From the NCBI RefSeq assembly GCF_000217935.1, contig NZ_AFHI01000034.1:62001-126000 (forward strand): DNA of 64,000 nt, written 5' to 3'. Under the pieces are notes generated by a model, which worked only from the letters and a program-made list of their open reading frames with translations, was not told the DNA's origin and searched no databases. Below, in pieces: positions 6,235 through 25,841 of this stretch (positions are counted from its first letter, which is position 1; each line of letters starts with the position of its first letter). The stretch comes from Rheinheimera sp. A13L. GTDB lineage: Bacteria > Pseudomonadota > Gammaproteobacteria > Enterobacterales > Alteromonadaceae. A program made the translations under genes and the position numbers.

Positions 6235-8850
6235 TTAGAAACGATAATTCACACCAACCTTATAACGGGCTTCCCCTTCAAAGAACCAAGCAGGGTAACC
6301 GTCTTTCAGCTCAGGCTTCACTTCTGCAGAGCTAGGAGCCACACCTAACTGCACACTGTCTTCTTTTGTCAGGTTGACCGCTTCAAAACTCATAGTCAGA
6401 TTTTCAGTGATTTCATAGTTCGCACTCAAATCTAAACTACCATAGTCCTGGTGCTCTCTGTTGCCATAGAAGCCAGGCAATTCGCGCATCATAAAGGCTG
6501 AACGCCAGTTATAAGCTAAACGGATACTGTACTGTGCCGCTTCATAGTAACCCACTAAGTTGATAGTATTTTTAGATGAATCAGTGAACATAGCGATTTC
6601 ATCCGGATAATTCTCAGCTGGTGAATCAGCGTCAACATAAGTGTAGTTTGCAATGTAACCCAGTCCATTGTCGAAGCCATCCTGTAACTGGAACTCGATC
6701 CCTTTAATCTCACCACCGTCGCCGTTAAAAATAGTGGAAACAGTCCAGTTATCAAGGTTAGAGTTTGGATCAACCACACCAATTTGTTGATTTAACAGTT
6801 GTCCTGAAGTTACAAAACTGCTTACATCTTTAAAGAATACCGTCGTGCTTGCCATGCCTGACTTGCCAAAGTAGTACTCAATACCAATGTCGCCCTGAGT
6901 TGCTTTAAAAGGATTCAAAGCAATATTCCCTTTAGTCACCACCTCATTACCTGGAGTGCCGTCGTTGTAGCCAGCAAAGTTTGAGCGCGAGAACATATCA
7001 GTATAGTTGGGTCTGGCAATAACCTCAGCCAAAGAGCCCCGCAGAATAATGTCAGGTGTCACATTGTAGGCAATGTTAAAGCTTGGCAAAACTTCGCTGT
7101 AATCTGCTTTATCTGTACTTAAGTTGTCAGCGTAAACACCGTTCACGAAATTGAAGTAATTCGAGCTGGCATCAGTTGAAACATAGCGAACACCGAAGTT
7201 ACCGCGAATGTCTTCTGTTGAAAAATCAGCCATCAGGTACAAAGACAGGTTTTCTTCATTGATAGTGCCATAGCCTGACTTGTAAGCTACAGAAGTGTTA
7301 TCAAAGCTCTGAATGGCCGCTCTGGCATCACTTAACATTGTAGATAATATAGGTTTAGGCAATGTAAAACCGCCTGCTGAAGACACTGAACCATTGTAGT
7401 AGCGGCTTGCCGGACCTTCAGGTACTGTACTTGCCATGTTCGCAGTGTATGTTTCAGCTTTCACATCGTGATCAGTCCAGCGTACACCTGTGCTGACTTT
7501 TGTAACAACACCAAAATTGACAGGAATATCCAGATCCAACTGAGCATATGTTTCTTCATCACTGTCAGGTTGCTGCTTTAACGACCAGCCTTCAGGTCGT
7601 AATACGGTCCCTGCAGCAAAATCGCCCGAACTAAAGTCTTTTTTGGCAATATTAATATCAATAATTTCACCACGAGCGTCATAAGTACCAGCATAGTTCG
7701 CTGGTGAGCCTAACCAGAAACCATAGTTCGCAGTTAAATCAGTGCCACCTTCAGCACTAGTATTGCCAACCCGGCCTGAGATAATAAAGTCATCTGCATC
7801 GTAGGAAAAATTAAGATCAACAGTGTCAGAAGACATACTGGCTGCCCTAGCCCAGCTTTGAGCCCAGCCTGAGTTTTCGTCCGACGCATCGCGACGGTAG
7901 AAGACACAAGTGCCAGACGCATTTTTTTGTTCACAAGCAGCTTCTTTGTCATCCGGAAACATTAAGAATAATGAGGTATTGGCGTTATTTGCTTCCAACT
8001 CAAGGCTGATAATGTTCAGACCCATTTCAAAATCGTCTGTTGGCCGGAATTGCAGTGTTGCATTGATCGCAGTACGTTCACGATCTTGCTCAAAAGTTGT
8101 AGGAACAATGTCACCCCATCCAACCAAAGATTCAATACCGTTTCGCTGATAAGCAGTTTCTGAATAAGATACAGCGCCAAGCACACCGAAAGTCTCATCC
8201 AGATTTTTCCAGCTGTACAAACCTGAAGCCTGTGGATCTGTCTCGCCGGACACAGAACCGTAATCGCCTTTGATACTGGCAAAAGCAGTACCACTATCCA
8301 TATCCAGTGGTTTACGGGTATTAACTATAACGGTACCGCCGACACCACCTTCAACAATATCAGCCTGAGACGATTTATACACTTCTACATCACCGATCAA
8401 TTCTGGCGGCAACAAAGAATAATTGAAGCTACGGTCTATCGATTGCTGGTCATACCAACCTGTTGATGCAACAGTTTGACCGTTTAGCAAGGTGCTGGTT
8501 AACTGGCTTGAAGCACCACGGATAGATACCTGCTGACCTTGACCAAACTGGCGGCTGACCGCAACACCTGAAATACGCCCAAGAGTTTCACCCACGTCAC
8601 TGTCAGGGAACTTACCAATATCTTCGGAAGTTACCACGTCAACTACAGCATCGCTGAATCGTTTTGCGTTTAAGCTGGCTTCCTGCGAAGCACGGATCCC
8701 TTTAACCTGGATCACTTCAACCTTTTGTTCTTTTTTTGCGCTTTCTTCTGCAGCCTGATCAGCCATAGTTGGAAATGCTAATACAGCAGTTCCTACCATT
8801 AAACCTAATTTGACCGCTACGGCGCACTTATTCATTTTATTGTGCAGCAT
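6235..8850 (-). CDS. TonB-dependent outer-membrane receptor of the sugar locus
   Basis: 871-residue TonB-dependent receptor of the Xanthomonas/Caulobacter type. Signal peptide at residues ~1-30 (hydrophobic VAVKLGLMVGTAVLAF, cleavage near TMA-DQ), a TonB-box-like VEVIQVKG at ~45, a plug domain (DVVTSEDIGKFPDSDVGET, then VSIRGASSQ and GGTVIVNTRKPL) and a beta barrel ending in VGVNYRF with terminal Phe. The ATG at 8850 has GGGAG seven bases upstream; an in-frame ATG at 8943 is rejected because it lies inside the operator. The promoter (TTGCAA-17-TATGTT) and operator at 8928-8980 put it under the divergent LacI regulator. Likely imports oligosaccharides too large for porins. Confidence 0.93.
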   Translation of the reverse strand: MLHNKMNKCAVAVKLGLMVGTAVLAFPTMADQAAEESAKKEQKVEVIQVKGIRASQEASLNAKRFSDAVVDVVTSEDIGKFPDSDVGETLGRISGVAVSRQFGQGQQVSIRGASSQLTSTLLNGQTVASTGWYDQQSIDRSFNYSLLPPELIGDVEVYKSSQADIVEGGVGGTVIVNTRKPLDMDSGTAFASIKGDYGSVSGETDPQASGLYSWKNLDETFGVLGAVSYSETAYQRNGIESLVGWGDIVPTTFEQDRERTAINATLQFRPTDDFEMGLNIISLELEANNANTSLFLMFPDDKEAACEQKNASGTCVFYRRDASDENSGWAQSWARAASMSSDTVDLNFSYDADDFIISGRVGNTSAEGGTDLTANYGFWLGSPANYAGTYDARGEIIDINIAKKDFSSGDFAAGTVLRPEGWSLKQQPDSDEETYAQLDLDIPVNFGVVTKVSTGVRWTDHDVKAETYTANMASTVPEGPASRYYNGSVSSAGGFTLPKPILSTMLSDARAAIQSFDNTSVAYKSGYGTINEENLSLYLMADFSTEDIRGNFGVRYVSTDASSNYFNFVNGVYADNLSTDKADYSEVLPSFNIAYNVTPDIILRGSLAEVIARPNYTDMFSRSNFAGYNDGTPGNEVVTKGNIALNPFKATQGDIGIEYYFGKSGMASTTVFFKDVSSFVTSGQLLNQQIGVVDPNSNLDNWTVSTIFNGDGGEIKGIEFQLQDGFDNGLGYIANYTYVDADSPAENYPDEIAMFTDSSKNTINLVGYYEAAQYSIRLAYNWRSAFMMRELPGFYGNREHQDYGSLDLSANYEITENLTMSFEAVNLTKEDSVQLGVAPSSAEVKPELKDGYPAWFFEGEARYKVGVNYRF

Positions 8851-16418: not shown

Positions 16419-17312
16419 TTATGCAGCAAACTGCTGCTGTAAAAACTGGATCACTACTTTTAAACCTGCCTTCATATGATGGCGGTTAGGGTACACCAGA
16501 TGCAGCGGCAGAGGCTCTGGCATATAGTCCTGCATCAGTTCCACCAGACTGCCGTTTTGCAGCTCCTTTTCCACCTGATAACGGGTCACAAACAACAAGC
16601 CCATATCGGCTAAAGCCGCATGTTTCAGCGCTCTGTTGCTGTTACACAAGACACGGCCTGTGGTCAGCACTTCAATTCGTTGATCCTGGTAACGAAAAAA
16701 CCAGGTGCGATCGGCCACGGATGAACCAGAACTCAAACATTGGTGATGGCATAAATCAGCAGGGCTTTGTGGTGTACCAAAGGCTTGCAAATAACCAGGG
16801 GAAGCCGCCAGTGTGATAGGTAAACCCGGTAAAGAACGGGCTATTAAACTTGAATTCGCCAATTGGCCAAATCTGATGCCTAAGTCCATTTTCTCGGCAA
16901 TCAAATCAATCACTTTGTCGTTTAAATCCAGCTCAATGCTGAGCTTAGGGTACTGTTTCAACAACTCTGGCAACAAAGGGGCAATCCGCAAAGTACCAAA
17001 AGTGACAGGCACACTAATACGAATTAAACCTGAGGGTTCATCCCGCAGTTCAGATAAATGATGTTCAGCCTGATCGGCCTGAACGACCACCCGCTGACAA
17101 TACTCAAAAAAGGCTTCGCCTTCTGAGGTTAAACTCAGCTGACGGGTGGAACGTTGCAATAAACGCACGTTTAAATGTTGCTCTAAGCGACTGATGGCTT
17201 TACTGACAGCACCTTTGGACATATCCAGCGCCACAGCAGCCTGAGTAAAACTGCGACTTTCCACTACTTTGGCAAATGTAGCCATATCACTTAAACGCTG
17301 TAACAACGACAT
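16419..17312 (-). CDS. LysR family transcriptional regulator
   Basis: 297-residue LysR regulator. The winged helix-turn-helix is at residues ~8-66 (MATFAKVVESRSFTQAAVAL, SKGAVSKAISRLEQHLNVRLL, STRQLSLTSEG). The effector domain begins near residue 92 (GLIRISVPVTFGTLRIAPLL). The subgroup resembles the DhcR/AaeR-like regulators with an N-terminal LLQRLSDMATF. It converges on the sensor kinase with a four-base gap and is divergent from the 55-residue gene at 17489, which is a plausible target. No effector can be assigned. Confidence 0.9.
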   Translation of the reverse strand: MSLLQRLSDMATFAKVVESRSFTQAAVALDMSKGAVSKAISRLEQHLNVRLLQRSTRQLSLTSEGEAFFEYCQRVVVQADQAEHHLSELRDEPSGLIRISVPVTFGTLRIAPLLPELLKQYPKLSIELDLNDKVIDLIAEKMDLGIRFGQLANSSLIARSLPGLPITLAASPGYLQAFGTPQSPADLCHHQCLSSGSSVADRTWFFRYQDQRIEVLTTGRVLCNSNRALKHAALADMGLLFVTRYQVEKELQNGSLVELMQDYMPEPLPLHLVYPNRHHMKAGLKVVIQFLQQQFAA

Positions 17313-17488
17313 CCCTGCACCTTTTTCTTATGCTGTTTTGTGCTTGATTTTAACCGGATTTTTTCACTCTGACTGTTTCTTTTAGGAAACTGTCTGTCTT
17401 TGTTCGCCCCGCTAATCAAAGCCATAGCTAATGCTTACACTGCCCAGCATTCAGACAGCAGAATTCAGATTAAAAAGGGGGAAATCTT

Positions 17489-17656
17489 ATGTTCAGCCAG
17501 AGTTTAGTACAGGTGTTTAAAGGCTTAGCTGAGTTTCATGGTTATGTACCAGTAGCCCCTGTACAGCAGACTGAATCGAACCAGGCCCTAACAACCTGCC
17601 CGGTAAAACCAGCTGCTGTACCACCGAATTCATGCATTAGTGTCACCAATTCCTAG
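17489..17656 (+). CDS. Small protein, 55 aa, family shared with the 39-aa gene at 62.7 kb
   Basis: Unrecognised 55-residue protein starting MFSQSLVQVFKGLAEFHGYV. Evidence for reality: AAAGGGGGAAA seven bases before the ATG, a strong intrinsic terminator (17681-17707) just after the stop, and a gapless match of its first 19 residues to the small protein at 62736-62855, with identical M1, S3, Q8, F10, L13, F16, G18, Y19. The first part could be an amphipathic helix; the rest is rich in Pro, Thr, Ser and Ala and has two Cys. It is transcribed away from the LysR gene. The 17313-17488 gap upstream has a GTTTC-N6-GAAAC inverted repeat that could be a LysR site. Function unknown. Confidence 0.65.
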   Translation: MFSQSLVQVFKGLAEFHGYVPVAPVQQTESNQALTTCPVKPAAVPPNSCISVTNS

Positions 17657-17680
17657 CTAAAAGGCGTTGCCGCCTCTTTT

Positions 17681-17707
17681 GCCCACCCAAGAAGTGGGCT
17701 TTTTTTT
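17681..17707 (+). terminator. Strong intrinsic terminator after the 55-aa gene
   Basis: GCCCAC / GTGGGC stem with a seven-base loop followed directly by eight T residues; a second small GC hairpin (AGGCGTTGCCGCCT) lies just upstream. It ends at the edge of the tandem repeat array. Confidence 0.85.
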
Positions 17708-17903
17708 ATGTACAGGAGGTACGGTACACCGAAAATGCAGGAGCATATTTTTGGTGATGTACAGGAGGTACGGTACACCGAAAATGCAGGAGCATATTTT
17801 TGGTGATGTACAGGAGGTACGGTACACCGAAAATGCAGGAGCATATTTTTGGTGATGTACAGGAGGTACGGTACACCGAAAATGCAGGAGCATATTTTCG
17901 GTG
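17708..17903 (+). repeat. Four tandem 49-bp repeats with eight CAGGAG motifs
   Basis: Units begin at 17708/17711, 17760, 17809 and 17858 with an exact 49-base period; the fourth differs at one base (TTTTCGG in place of TTTTTGG). Each unit holds two hairpins: GTAC-AGGAG-GTAC, and ATGC-AGGA-GCAT extended by CACCGAAAA / TTTT(T/C)GGTG. The change in unit four turns a G-U pair into G-C, so pairing is kept in RNA from the plus strand. The period is not a multiple of three and open frames across it shift each unit, so it is not coding. An ACAATAGT / ACTATTGT hairpin follows at 17907-17928. See findings for the CsrB-like interpretation. Confidence 0.9.
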
Positions 17904-18001
17904 ACTCACAATAGTGCTGAGACTATTGTCGAACCACTGTTAAAAAATAAAAACTGCACCATACTTTGTACCTGTTATTTTTCAACGACAGGGAGAATAT
18001 C

Positions 18002-18808
18002 ATGCTTTATCAGGTCAAAACCGGAGATACTTTAAGCACCATTGCCGCCCGTTATTATGGTGACAGCAGTAAAGCAAGCTGGATCGCCAGCCAGAATCAT
18101 TTAGCGAATGCCAATCAGATTTATCCGGGTCAACAACTGGAATTACCAGACTTGACTTCAACAGAATTGGCTTCAACAGAAGCAACTTTAGTCAGTCCGG
18201 CTTTGCTGTCAGCTTTGTGCCCTGCTTTAAACGCCAGCGATCTGAATCTTTTCTGCAAGGCGTTGGAGCTGGATTTGCCTAAAGCTCAGATCACTCCGCC
18301 TCTGTGTGTCGCCCATTTTATGGCACAAACTGCCCACGAAAGTGCAGGTTATGCTCAGCTCAGAGAGAACCTGAACTACAGCGCTTCAGCCTTGAGCTCT
18401 TTGTTTGCCAAATATTTTGTTGGCGTTGATGTAAATGAGTACGCCAGGCAACCAGAAAAAATCGCCAACCGTATTTATGCCAATCGAATGGGTAATGGTG
18501 CTGAACAAAGCGGCGATGGCTGGGCATACAGAGGCCGGGGCATTATTCAACTGACAGGCAAAGCGAACTACCAGGCTTTTAGCAAGGACTGGGGCACAGA
18601 TGTGGTTAATCAACCTGATTTGGTTGCCTTAGATCCTGTGCTGGCCGTTGCATCGGGCTGTTGGTATTGGCAAAAGCGCAATATTAATGCCGCTGCGCAA
18701 GCAGACGATTTAATGAAAGTAACCAAGCTGATTAACGGCGGCACCAATGGCATTGAGGACAGAGCGCATTTGCTCGGTATAGCCAAACAACAGATGGGAC
18801 TAAATTAA
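18002..18808 (+). CDS. LysM domain plus GH19 chitinase/lysozyme-like endolysin
   Basis: 268-residue cell-wall hydrolase. Residues ~1-48 form one LysM peptidoglycan-binding domain (YQVKTGDTLSTIAARYYG through IYPGQQLELP). After a Thr/Ser/Ala linker, residues ~75-265 form a GH19 domain with the catalytic Glu in MAQTAHESAGY, then RENLNYSA, YANRMGNG, GWAYRGRGIIQLTGKANY and ASGCWYWQKRNIN. The ATG has GGGAG seven bases upstream. There is no signal peptide and no holin or phage gene nearby, so this is either a domesticated phage endolysin or a protein exported by another route. Confidence 0.9.
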   Translation: MLYQVKTGDTLSTIAARYYGDSSKASWIASQNHLANANQIYPGQQLELPDLTSTELASTEATLVSPALLSALCPALNASDLNLFCKALELDLPKAQITPPLCVAHFMAQTAHESAGYAQLRENLNYSASALSSLFAKYFVGVDVNEYARQPEKIANRIYANRMGNGAEQSGDGWAYRGRGIIQLTGKANYQAFSKDWGTDVVNQPDLVALDPVLAVASGCWYWQKRNINAAAQADDLMKVTKLINGGTNGIEDRAHLLGIAKQQMGLN

Positions 18809-24795: not shown

Positions 24796-25804
24796 ATGCA
24801 GCACTACTGCGATAACTACACAGGGGTTCTTTTAATTCTGGCGGATGAATGAGTTTATCCAAAGGGCTAACTGTGCCCGCGTAATGCTGACCAATCACAT
24901 GAGTATAAATTTGAGTGGTTGCCACATCGTTATGCCCAAGCAATTCCTGCACTGTGCGTATGTCATAACCCGATTGCAATAAATGAGTGGCAAATGAATG
25001 ACGAAACGTGTGGCAATTCACTTTTTTACGAATACCGCTGGCAACGACAGCTGGCTGCAGCGTCTTTCTGATCACACTATCATGCAAATGATGCCTGCAA
25101 AGCACTCCTGTCAGCGGGTGAGCACAAAGACAAGTTGAAGGAAACAAATACATCCAACCTGCTTGTCGATATGCAGAAGGGTATTTCCGCCCCAACGCAA
25201 AGGGTAAAGATGGGCCAATACCACGCAGATTGTCTTGCTGTTGCAAAGCCAGAGCTTGTTCTATACGTTGCTTCAGTGTGGGCACCAAACTGCGACTAAG
25301 CAAAGTTTGCCTGTCTTTTCTTCCCTTGCCGTCTCTGACAGTAATAGATAAATGCTCCAGATCAACATCTTGTACACGCAGGCGTAAACACTCAGAAACC
25401 CTTAACCCGCTACCGTACAATAAAGACACTACAAGTAAAGGTAACCCCTTCAGGTGTTGCAATACTGCGGCAACTTCTGCAACAGATAACACGACAGGCA
25501 AGCTGCGTTGTTTCACAGCATGCTTAAACCCAAGCTCGCCCAACTCCAGTTTTAAAAACTTGTGGTACAAAAAGACTAACGCATTCAACGCTACTTTTTG
25601 AGTGTTCACAGCAACATGCCGCTGATTCGCCAGCCAGCTTAAAAAATTTTTGACCTCTTCAGCCCCCATCTCTTGTGGATGTTTTTTCTGGTGAAACAGA
25701 ATAAAACTTTTTATCCAATACAAGTAGGAATGCTCTGTACGAATGCTATATCCCCTTAACCGAATGTCTTCAGATACAGCTTGTAAAAAAGCACTTTTAG
25801 CCAT
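24794..25804 (-). CDS. intI: Integron integrase IntI (tyrosine recombinase)
   Basis: 336-residue site-specific recombinase. The N-terminal SAM-like core-binding domain is residues ~5-90. The catalytic residues are all present: Arg in GSGLRVSE (~135), His-x-x-Arg in CHTFRHSFATH (~266-269), His in LLGHNDV and Tyr in QIYTHV (~300). The IntI-specific insert that contacts attC is visible at ~200-245 (LPFALGRKYPSAYRQAGW, LFPS, LCRHHLHDSVI). The gene is intact, so cassette capture may still occur. The ATG at 25804 has GGTGAG seven bases upstream; an in-frame ATG at 25837 is less likely because it overlaps a LexA-like box. It is divergent from the cassette array, the standard integron layout. Confidence 0.95.
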   Translation of the reverse strand: MAKSAFLQAVSEDIRLRGYSIRTEHSYLYWIKSFILFHQKKHPQEMGAEEVKNFLSWLANQRHVAVNTQKVALNALVFLYHKFLKLELGELGFKHAVKQRSLPVVLSVAEVAAVLQHLKGLPLLVVSLLYGSGLRVSECLRLRVQDVDLEHLSITVRDGKGRKDRQTLLSRSLVPTLKQRIEQALALQQQDNLRGIGPSLPFALGRKYPSAYRQAGWMYLFPSTCLCAHPLTGVLCRHHLHDSVIRKTLQPAVVASGIRKKVNCHTFRHSFATHLLQSGYDIRTVQELLGHNDVATTQIYTHVIGQHYAGTVSPLDKLIHPPELKEPLCSYRSSAA

Positions 25805-25821
25805 TTTAAGCTCACCATAAA

Positions 25822-25841
25822 ACATGTATATAAACACAGTA
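25822..25841 (-). promoter_or_regulatory. LexA-like SOS box before intI
   Basis: On the minus strand TACTGTGTTTATATACATGT, ending 18 bases before the intI ATG. It matches the gammaproteobacterial LexA consensus CTGT-N8-ACAG at seven of eight fixed positions (final G is T). SOS control of intI is established for class 1 and Vibrio integrons. Confidence 0.7.

Follow-up and report, generated by a model that had tools for sequence, protein, structure and literature searches.

The window, that is, the whole stretch of DNA analysed here, spans 64 kb (positions 62001-126000 of contig C38) in a genome of 4.52 Mb. The locus of interest comprises a short open reading frame, an intrinsic terminator, four tandem repeat units, a separate hairpin and an endolysin-like gene:

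17489..17656, plus strand: open reading frame of 55 codons (stop included), 5' of the terminator, without a Pfam or NCBIfam match
17681..17707, plus strand: intrinsic terminator, a 6-bp stem (17681-17699) followed by eight T, abutting the array
17708..17756, plus strand: unit 1, composed of hairpin A (GTAC-AGGAG-GTAC), the linker GGTA and hairpin B (CACCGAAAATGC-AGGA-GCATATTTTTGGTG)
17757..17805, plus strand: unit 2, same sequence as unit 1
17806..17854, plus strand: unit 3, same sequence as unit 1
17855..17903, plus strand: unit 4, with a G-U to G-C change in hairpin B (76.5 bits)
17907..17928, plus strand: hairpin without a T-run, not called as a terminator; a similar sequence lies 3' of the array in five other array-bearing orthologous loci
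18002..18808, plus strand: endolysin-like gene with LysM and glycoside hydrolase 19 matches, downstream of the array

Elsewhere in the window, an integron integrase is encoded on the minus strand (24797-25837; TIGR02249, 410.6 bits against a cut-off of 265), and a chromosomal integron may therefore lie in the window.

Tandem repeat analysis with TRF returned 4.0 copies of a 49-bp unit at 17708-17904 with 99% matches. Three copies read ATGTACAGGAGGTACGGTACACCGAAAATGCAGGAGCATATTTTTGGTG, and the fourth ends in TTTTCGGTG, a single change that replaces G-U by G-C. A previous sequence-only reading of this DNA had described four 49-bp units with two GGA-loop hairpins each (eight loops in total), the G-U to G-C change in one of them, and a position directly 3' of a terminator; TRF and the sequence at 17708-17903 bear out these statements, the array starting at the first base 3' of the T-run. 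The same reading took 17907-17928 for a terminator-like hairpin; this hairpin has no T-run and is not called as a terminator. The eight GGA words follow each other at alternating distances of 25 and 24 nt, and RNA folding, one of the checks proposed at that time, predicts all of them to be unpaired, with probabilities of 1.00 each for the array alone and 0.62 to 1.00 when the terminator is included. Hairpins of the form C-A(N)GGAX-G whose stem has 4 bp or more are found four times on the two strands of the window, all inside the array, compared with a mean of 0.8 and a maximum of 3 in Markov controls (n = 40).

Tandem hairpin repeats of this kind form an interspersed, chromosomal family to which the window array belongs. 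Its units measure about 49 nt, and neighbouring GGA words are spaced by about 25 nt. With a covariance model (R1) built on the unit, 32 matches with E no higher than 0.01 were obtained in the own genome (G000), distributed over 15 loci. Scattered single units had been named in the sequence-only reading as refuting a small RNA, and by that measure its proposal is partly refuted, the units standing singly or in tandem at these 15 loci. The search of other genomes, likewise proposed there, yielded matches in 88 of 246 genomes and 31 of 52 genera of the bacterial family, where match counts per genome are lower bounds (at most 24 candidates scored in each), and, at the level of the class, in 35 of 369 genomes including the own one. 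Tandem arrays comprise up to six copies in G001 (C17:54634-54933), and 49-bp tandem copies are also present in Colwellia records. In addition, an exact-pattern scan of genome contigs gave 78 stretches, 42 of which were examined; these were taken as proteobacterial by title and are mostly gammaproteobacterial, and several of them are apparent chance matches within genes. Six pattern matches in viral contigs were discarded as likely chance occurrences, the word lacking a preceding hairpin A. In Nitrincola (L085) and Marinomonas (L118), a GGA-hairpin pair lies within an apparent protein-coding gene, resembling an intragenic palindromic element.

Rfam searches of the window, of 17300-18100 at a lax threshold and of 10 array loci gave only two tRNAs above the cut-offs. 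We recognised no description of these repeats in the open-access literature, although one may exist elsewhere; the words Shewanella, Colwellia, tandem and CsrA do not appear in the accessible portion of PMC2267715. Interspersed palindromic repeats of bacteria are a known class of elements, and the features that distinguish the present family are its anchoring to terminators and its CsrA-type loops.

The anchoring was analysed across the bacterial family, own genome included. The counts for terminators, strand and covariation refer to alignment A2, made up of the best 150 among 213 model matches (100 sources). Of 99 arrays, 78 pass a strict test that asks for a terminator directly at the first unit (a T-run of at least 3 and a hairpin of -5 kcal/mol or lower); on the far side (opposite strand) 0/99 pass, and at random positions 5/297. 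Ten of the 21 arrays that fail the test have no T-run, and in several of the rest a terminator can be recognised on visual inspection. Among 98 distinct flanks, 95% have a T immediately before the array, and T-runs of at least 4 end at the array in 81 of these 98 flanks versus one of 98 on the far side. The anchoring terminators differ among themselves in sequence, and the 3' ends of the arrays are ragged. The precision of the 5' junction suggests that the terminator hairpin and its T-run are the target of the arrays. Beyond the bacterial family the anchoring is weaker: three of 17 examined class loci (L315, L317 and L323) are clearly 3' of a terminator, and the remaining ones are partly within longer hairpin mosaics (two further loci were too short for terminator inspection). 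At L330, L333 and L321, from other gammaproteobacterial families, GGA-loop hairpins of either orientation form long mosaics that are wider than the unit of two hairpins.

Neighbouring genes were oriented from open frames only, which left 29/99 upstream and 40/99 downstream sides uncallable. Where the upstream gene could be called (70 cases), it points to the array in 59, and the callable downstream genes (n = 59) include 32 co-directional and 27 opposed ones. This mixture bears on the proposal, mentioned in the sequence-only reading, that the array is a phase-variable leader of the endolysin. At the window locus the array ends 98 nt before the endolysin-like gene and its copy number varies between genomes, as would suit a variable leader controlling that gene; the family-wide downstream orientations do not fit such a function, and the gene is kept without any array in two orthologues. 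A leader is thus unlikely as a general explanation, and we consider it very improbable for this locus as well.

The arrays turn over fast. The endolysin gene was matched in 11 genomes, nine of which gave readable intervals (G002 and G014 were dropped). Six of the nine orthologous loci carry 4, 3, 1, 1, 1 and 1 (decayed) units, two carry none, and one carries another element; a comparable terminator is present at the sites without an array. The orthologous array of G016, from the same genus, is identical to an array in the Rheinheimera faecalis record L064. The other element, found in G004, is a distinct inverted GGA-hairpin element at the T-run of the window-locus orthologue. An inverted element related to the arrays, and like them behind a terminator T-run, was seen at L229 (the window-locus T-run) and L005, where the minus strand has GCCATGGATGGC hairpins and a GGCCCG..GGG motif.

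The own genome and G001 were compared at 14 of the 15 own loci; matches of L171, at a contig end, and a one-sided match (L177) were set aside. Identity is 97% downstream and 90% upstream of the window locus and 80 to 95% at the other loci. Besides the window locus, five array-to-array pairs were compared. In the first pair, which shares one bidirectional terminator, the array stands behind the right T-run in G000 and behind the left T-run, on the other strand, in G001. The second pair shares the terminator and the 3' flank and differs in the sequence of hairpin B. In the third pair, hairpin B is plain in G001 and carries an insertion of about 75 nt within its GGA loop in G000. The fourth has a decayed unit in G001, and the fifth has one unit in each genome. 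The insertion of about 75 nt, itself made of hairpins (GTGATA..CGG .. CCG..TATCAC GCCTTCGCC TCT GGCG..), occupies the GGA loop of hairpin B in the last unit of many arrays of the own genome (L161, L163, L172, L173, L177, L179 and L182).

The main rival to the explanation proposed below is a repeat that is mobile at the DNA level only: a recombinase or transposase would recognise single-stranded hairpins and insert beside terminator hairpins, the GGA would serve as recognition letters, and CsrA would be uninvolved. Hairpins are used by group IIC introns and IS200/IS605-like elements. The many copies, the exact 5' junction at the T-run, and the presence, absence or opposite-side placement of arrays at orthologous terminators all agree with mobility of this kind. 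On the other hand, the enzymes that might be expected as partners are not consistently found. Among the 33 array-rich genomes, defined by at least eight covariance-model matches, Y1 transposase (PF01797) matches are absent in eight, RVT_1 matches are absent in 17, the own genome included, and four have neither, which rules out a Y1 transposase or an RVT_1 reverse transcriptase as a required partner. The association with Y1 is weak (63/88 genomes with arrays versus 92/158 without, p = 0.04), and there is none with reverse transcriptases (47/88 versus 83/158, p = 1.0). By blastn, the window array has no match among 72,556 plasmid and 50,697 phage records. Furthermore, this account leaves the likeness of the loops to the CsrA motif, optional N included, as a coincidence. 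We regard mobility alone as rather unlikely to be the full explanation.

The stems of the unit covary. In 115 distinct units of the alignment, 269 double-change cells were counted in the stems versus 84 after shuffling, and the covariation score is 0.44 compared with at most 0.12 for slid versions. Loop A conforms to A(N)GGAX in 113/115 units, where N may be missing or may vary and X can be any nucleotide, and is closed by a C-G pair in 112/115, while the next pair changes freely (CG 50, AU 49, UA 12). Hairpin B, which is preceded by a conserved GGTA, has a shorter loop; this loop has GGA in 113/115 units, 19/115 have no A before it, and the nucleotide X is absent in most. Conservation of GGA is partly built in, because the seeds of the covariance model were picked by a pattern that demanded it. 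Outside the model matches, perfect hairpins have a GGA loop on either strand in 21 of 91 cases near arrays and in none of 52 far from them, overlapping versions of one hairpin being counted twice; 15 of these 21 are inverted relative to the array.

These data weigh on a further alternative, namely that the hairpins are a passive 3' spacer that stabilises read-through 3' ends or insulates neighbouring genes without any specific protein. Stabilisation of 3' ends and insulation have been proposed for REP/BIME, and both the location behind terminators and the mixed orientation of downstream genes would suit such a role. A spacer, however, would conserve the stems and not the loop letters, and yet A(N)GGAX stays while the stem letters change, so that we find this alternative improbable.

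The sequence-only reading had stated that the G-U to G-C change in one unit keeps pairing only in plus-strand RNA. The family alignment favours the plus strand, in that G-U cells outnumber A-C cells by 58 to 14 (outermost pair excluded). This wobble bias is as expected of plus-strand RNA; with less specificity it also suits single-stranded DNA of the plus strand, which a mobile repeat would offer as a substrate. Folding of the single sequence is of no help in this respect: the z values for 17708-17945 are -7.2 (plus strand) and -6.3 (minus strand) and do not choose between the two.

The conserved loop resembles a known protein-binding site. According to the sections of PMC4005645 available to us, RsmE recognises in RsmZ the loop motif A(N)GGAX above a C-G closing pair; N and X are variable, N raises the affinity, and the second stem pair is mostly U-A. 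The fixed and free positions of loop A coincide with the core and closing pair of this RsmE/RsmZ motif, the second pair being free in the repeat family; the loop A of the window, which has no N, corresponds to the lower-affinity form in the same sections. The host has one csrA. Co-occurrence of arrays with CsrA is uninformative, because csrA is present in 242/246 genomes.

A putative CsrB-like RNA gene was found in the host genome at G000 C45:6963-7301 (L377). It measures 339 nt by our own boundaries and has 22 GGA words and an end hairpin. The match to the CsrB model (E = 5e-10, 42.4 bits) is under the Rfam cut-off of 71, and when E values of up to 1 were admitted, 5/14 control genomes had matches too, one of them above the cut-off. 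A TGTGAG-N6-CTCACA box, which we take to be a UvrY site, lies upstream of the gene at 6779. From its sequence features, this is likely a genuine CsrB-like small RNA gene of the host. Its hairpins TGTTC-AGGAC-GAACA and ATCTTC-AGGAT-GAAGAT have the same form as hairpin A. The predicted probability of the closing pair of hairpin A (4 bp) is low, at 0.04-0.05 for the array alone and 0.09-0.20 with the terminator included; in a Colwellia-type array it is 0.00-0.01, and the GGA of hairpin A is predicted to be mostly paired. These predictions do not decide the matter, because a comparable hairpin of the CsrB-like RNA, of the same form, likewise scores only 0.03.

The sequence-only reading had proposed a CsrB/RsmZ-type RNA that titrates CsrA. 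One part of this proposal is retained: covariation around A(N)GGAX on a C-G pair and the similar hairpins of the host CsrB-like RNA strengthen the reading of the loops as possible CsrA sites. The other part, a dedicated small RNA gene, finds agreement in the eight evenly spaced GGA sites in 200 nt, all predicted to be unpaired, but is otherwise not supported, and the array begins right at the end of the upstream terminator. A simple consensus scan of the plus strand of 17300-18100 gave no promoter-like match, the sole terminator called in this region precedes the array and none follows it, the UvrY-like box is absent from the 64-kb window, and the array has no Rfam match. The orthologous site holds from 0 to 4 units within the genus, and the same genome contains the separate CsrB-like gene described above. 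The array has hairpins shaped like those of the CsrB-like RNA but lacks the appearance of a further CsrB gene. A free-standing small RNA of the CsrB type is improbable here, and a gene dedicated to one is, in our estimate, highly unlikely.

As an explanation that takes account of the observed position, family membership, covariation and turnover, we propose a terminator-anchored repeat whose read-through RNA would display CsrA sites, acting as a decoy or as a CsrA-bound 3' tail and not as a dedicated small RNA gene. RNA polymerase would pass the terminator and transcribe the array; plus-strand array RNA is to be expected from such read-through, because the T-run and the first unit adjoin without a gap. 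This RNA may expose sites that host CsrA can bind, and the array would then function as a CsrA decoy, or a CsrA-bound tail, that depends on read-through. The reading is favoured because of a precedent in E. coli: as reported in the available part of PMC8144298, the RNAs RrA, RrB and RrF map between the first and second terminators of rrn operons and arise when the first is read through, and RrB binds CsrA in vitro through GGA motifs, with modest effects in vivo. Counting against a decoy, the location behind a terminator would hold the levels of array RNA low. Overall, we give the read-through decoy or tail about even credence. A broader version, in which the hairpin arrays of Gammaproteobacteria are self-spreading RNA decoys that seek out terminators, so that read-through leads to CsrA being sequestered or recruited, the terminator-targeting spread having no need of a host Y1 transposase or RVT_1, is put forward as a speculation that we hold to be unlikely.

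If the proposed function is true, the amount of leaked transcription would be coupled to the global carbon-storage regulator CsrA. A repeat class outside Rfam would then link transcription termination to the CsrA network and would offer, as a natural series, arrays with CsrA sites in one to six units. Should CsrA play no part, the exact placement behind terminators, which in two congeneric species includes opposite sides of a shared terminator, would still point to a novel spreading route, one without need of the two tested enzyme families and testable in culturable environmental bacteria.

The array can be compared with four known systems. As in the CsrB/CsrC and RsmX/Y/Z small RNAs, A(N)GGAX loops closed by C-G recur in several hairpins of the array; hairpin A agrees with this form in 4/4 window units, 113/115 loops and 112/115 closing pairs, with its pairing predicted to be low, and hairpin B agrees partly. 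In contrast to these RNAs, the array has no promoter match of its own in 17300-18100, no UvrY-like box in the window, no 3' terminator and no Rfam match; it is repeated at many loci in variable copy number, and its second stem pair is not fixed. REP/BIME elements with RAYT are likewise short palindromes that occur between genes in many copies, arranged in tandem or inverted. The array differs from them in being fixed to terminator T-runs, in conserving loop letters and in not requiring a Y1 transposase. REP hairpins have a GTAG/GGAG tetranucleotide at their foot; the array has a conserved GGTA before hairpin B, a word other than the classical one. Group IIC introns insert behind terminators, and they share with the array a target composed of a terminator hairpin followed by T; the unit of the array, however, is only about 49 nt, and RVT_1 matches are absent in 17/33 array-rich genomes, the own one among them. 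The E. coli RNAs RrA, RrB and RrF differ in that the array is a tandem repeat behind many different terminators, with a second terminator not found in the window, and in that CsrA binding has been demonstrated for RrB whereas the CsrA sites of the array are predicted; nevertheless, as far as the available part of PMC8144298 allows the comparison, they and the array share a location behind a terminator and GGA words in loops, and for the array, too, an RNA made by read-through would be expected.
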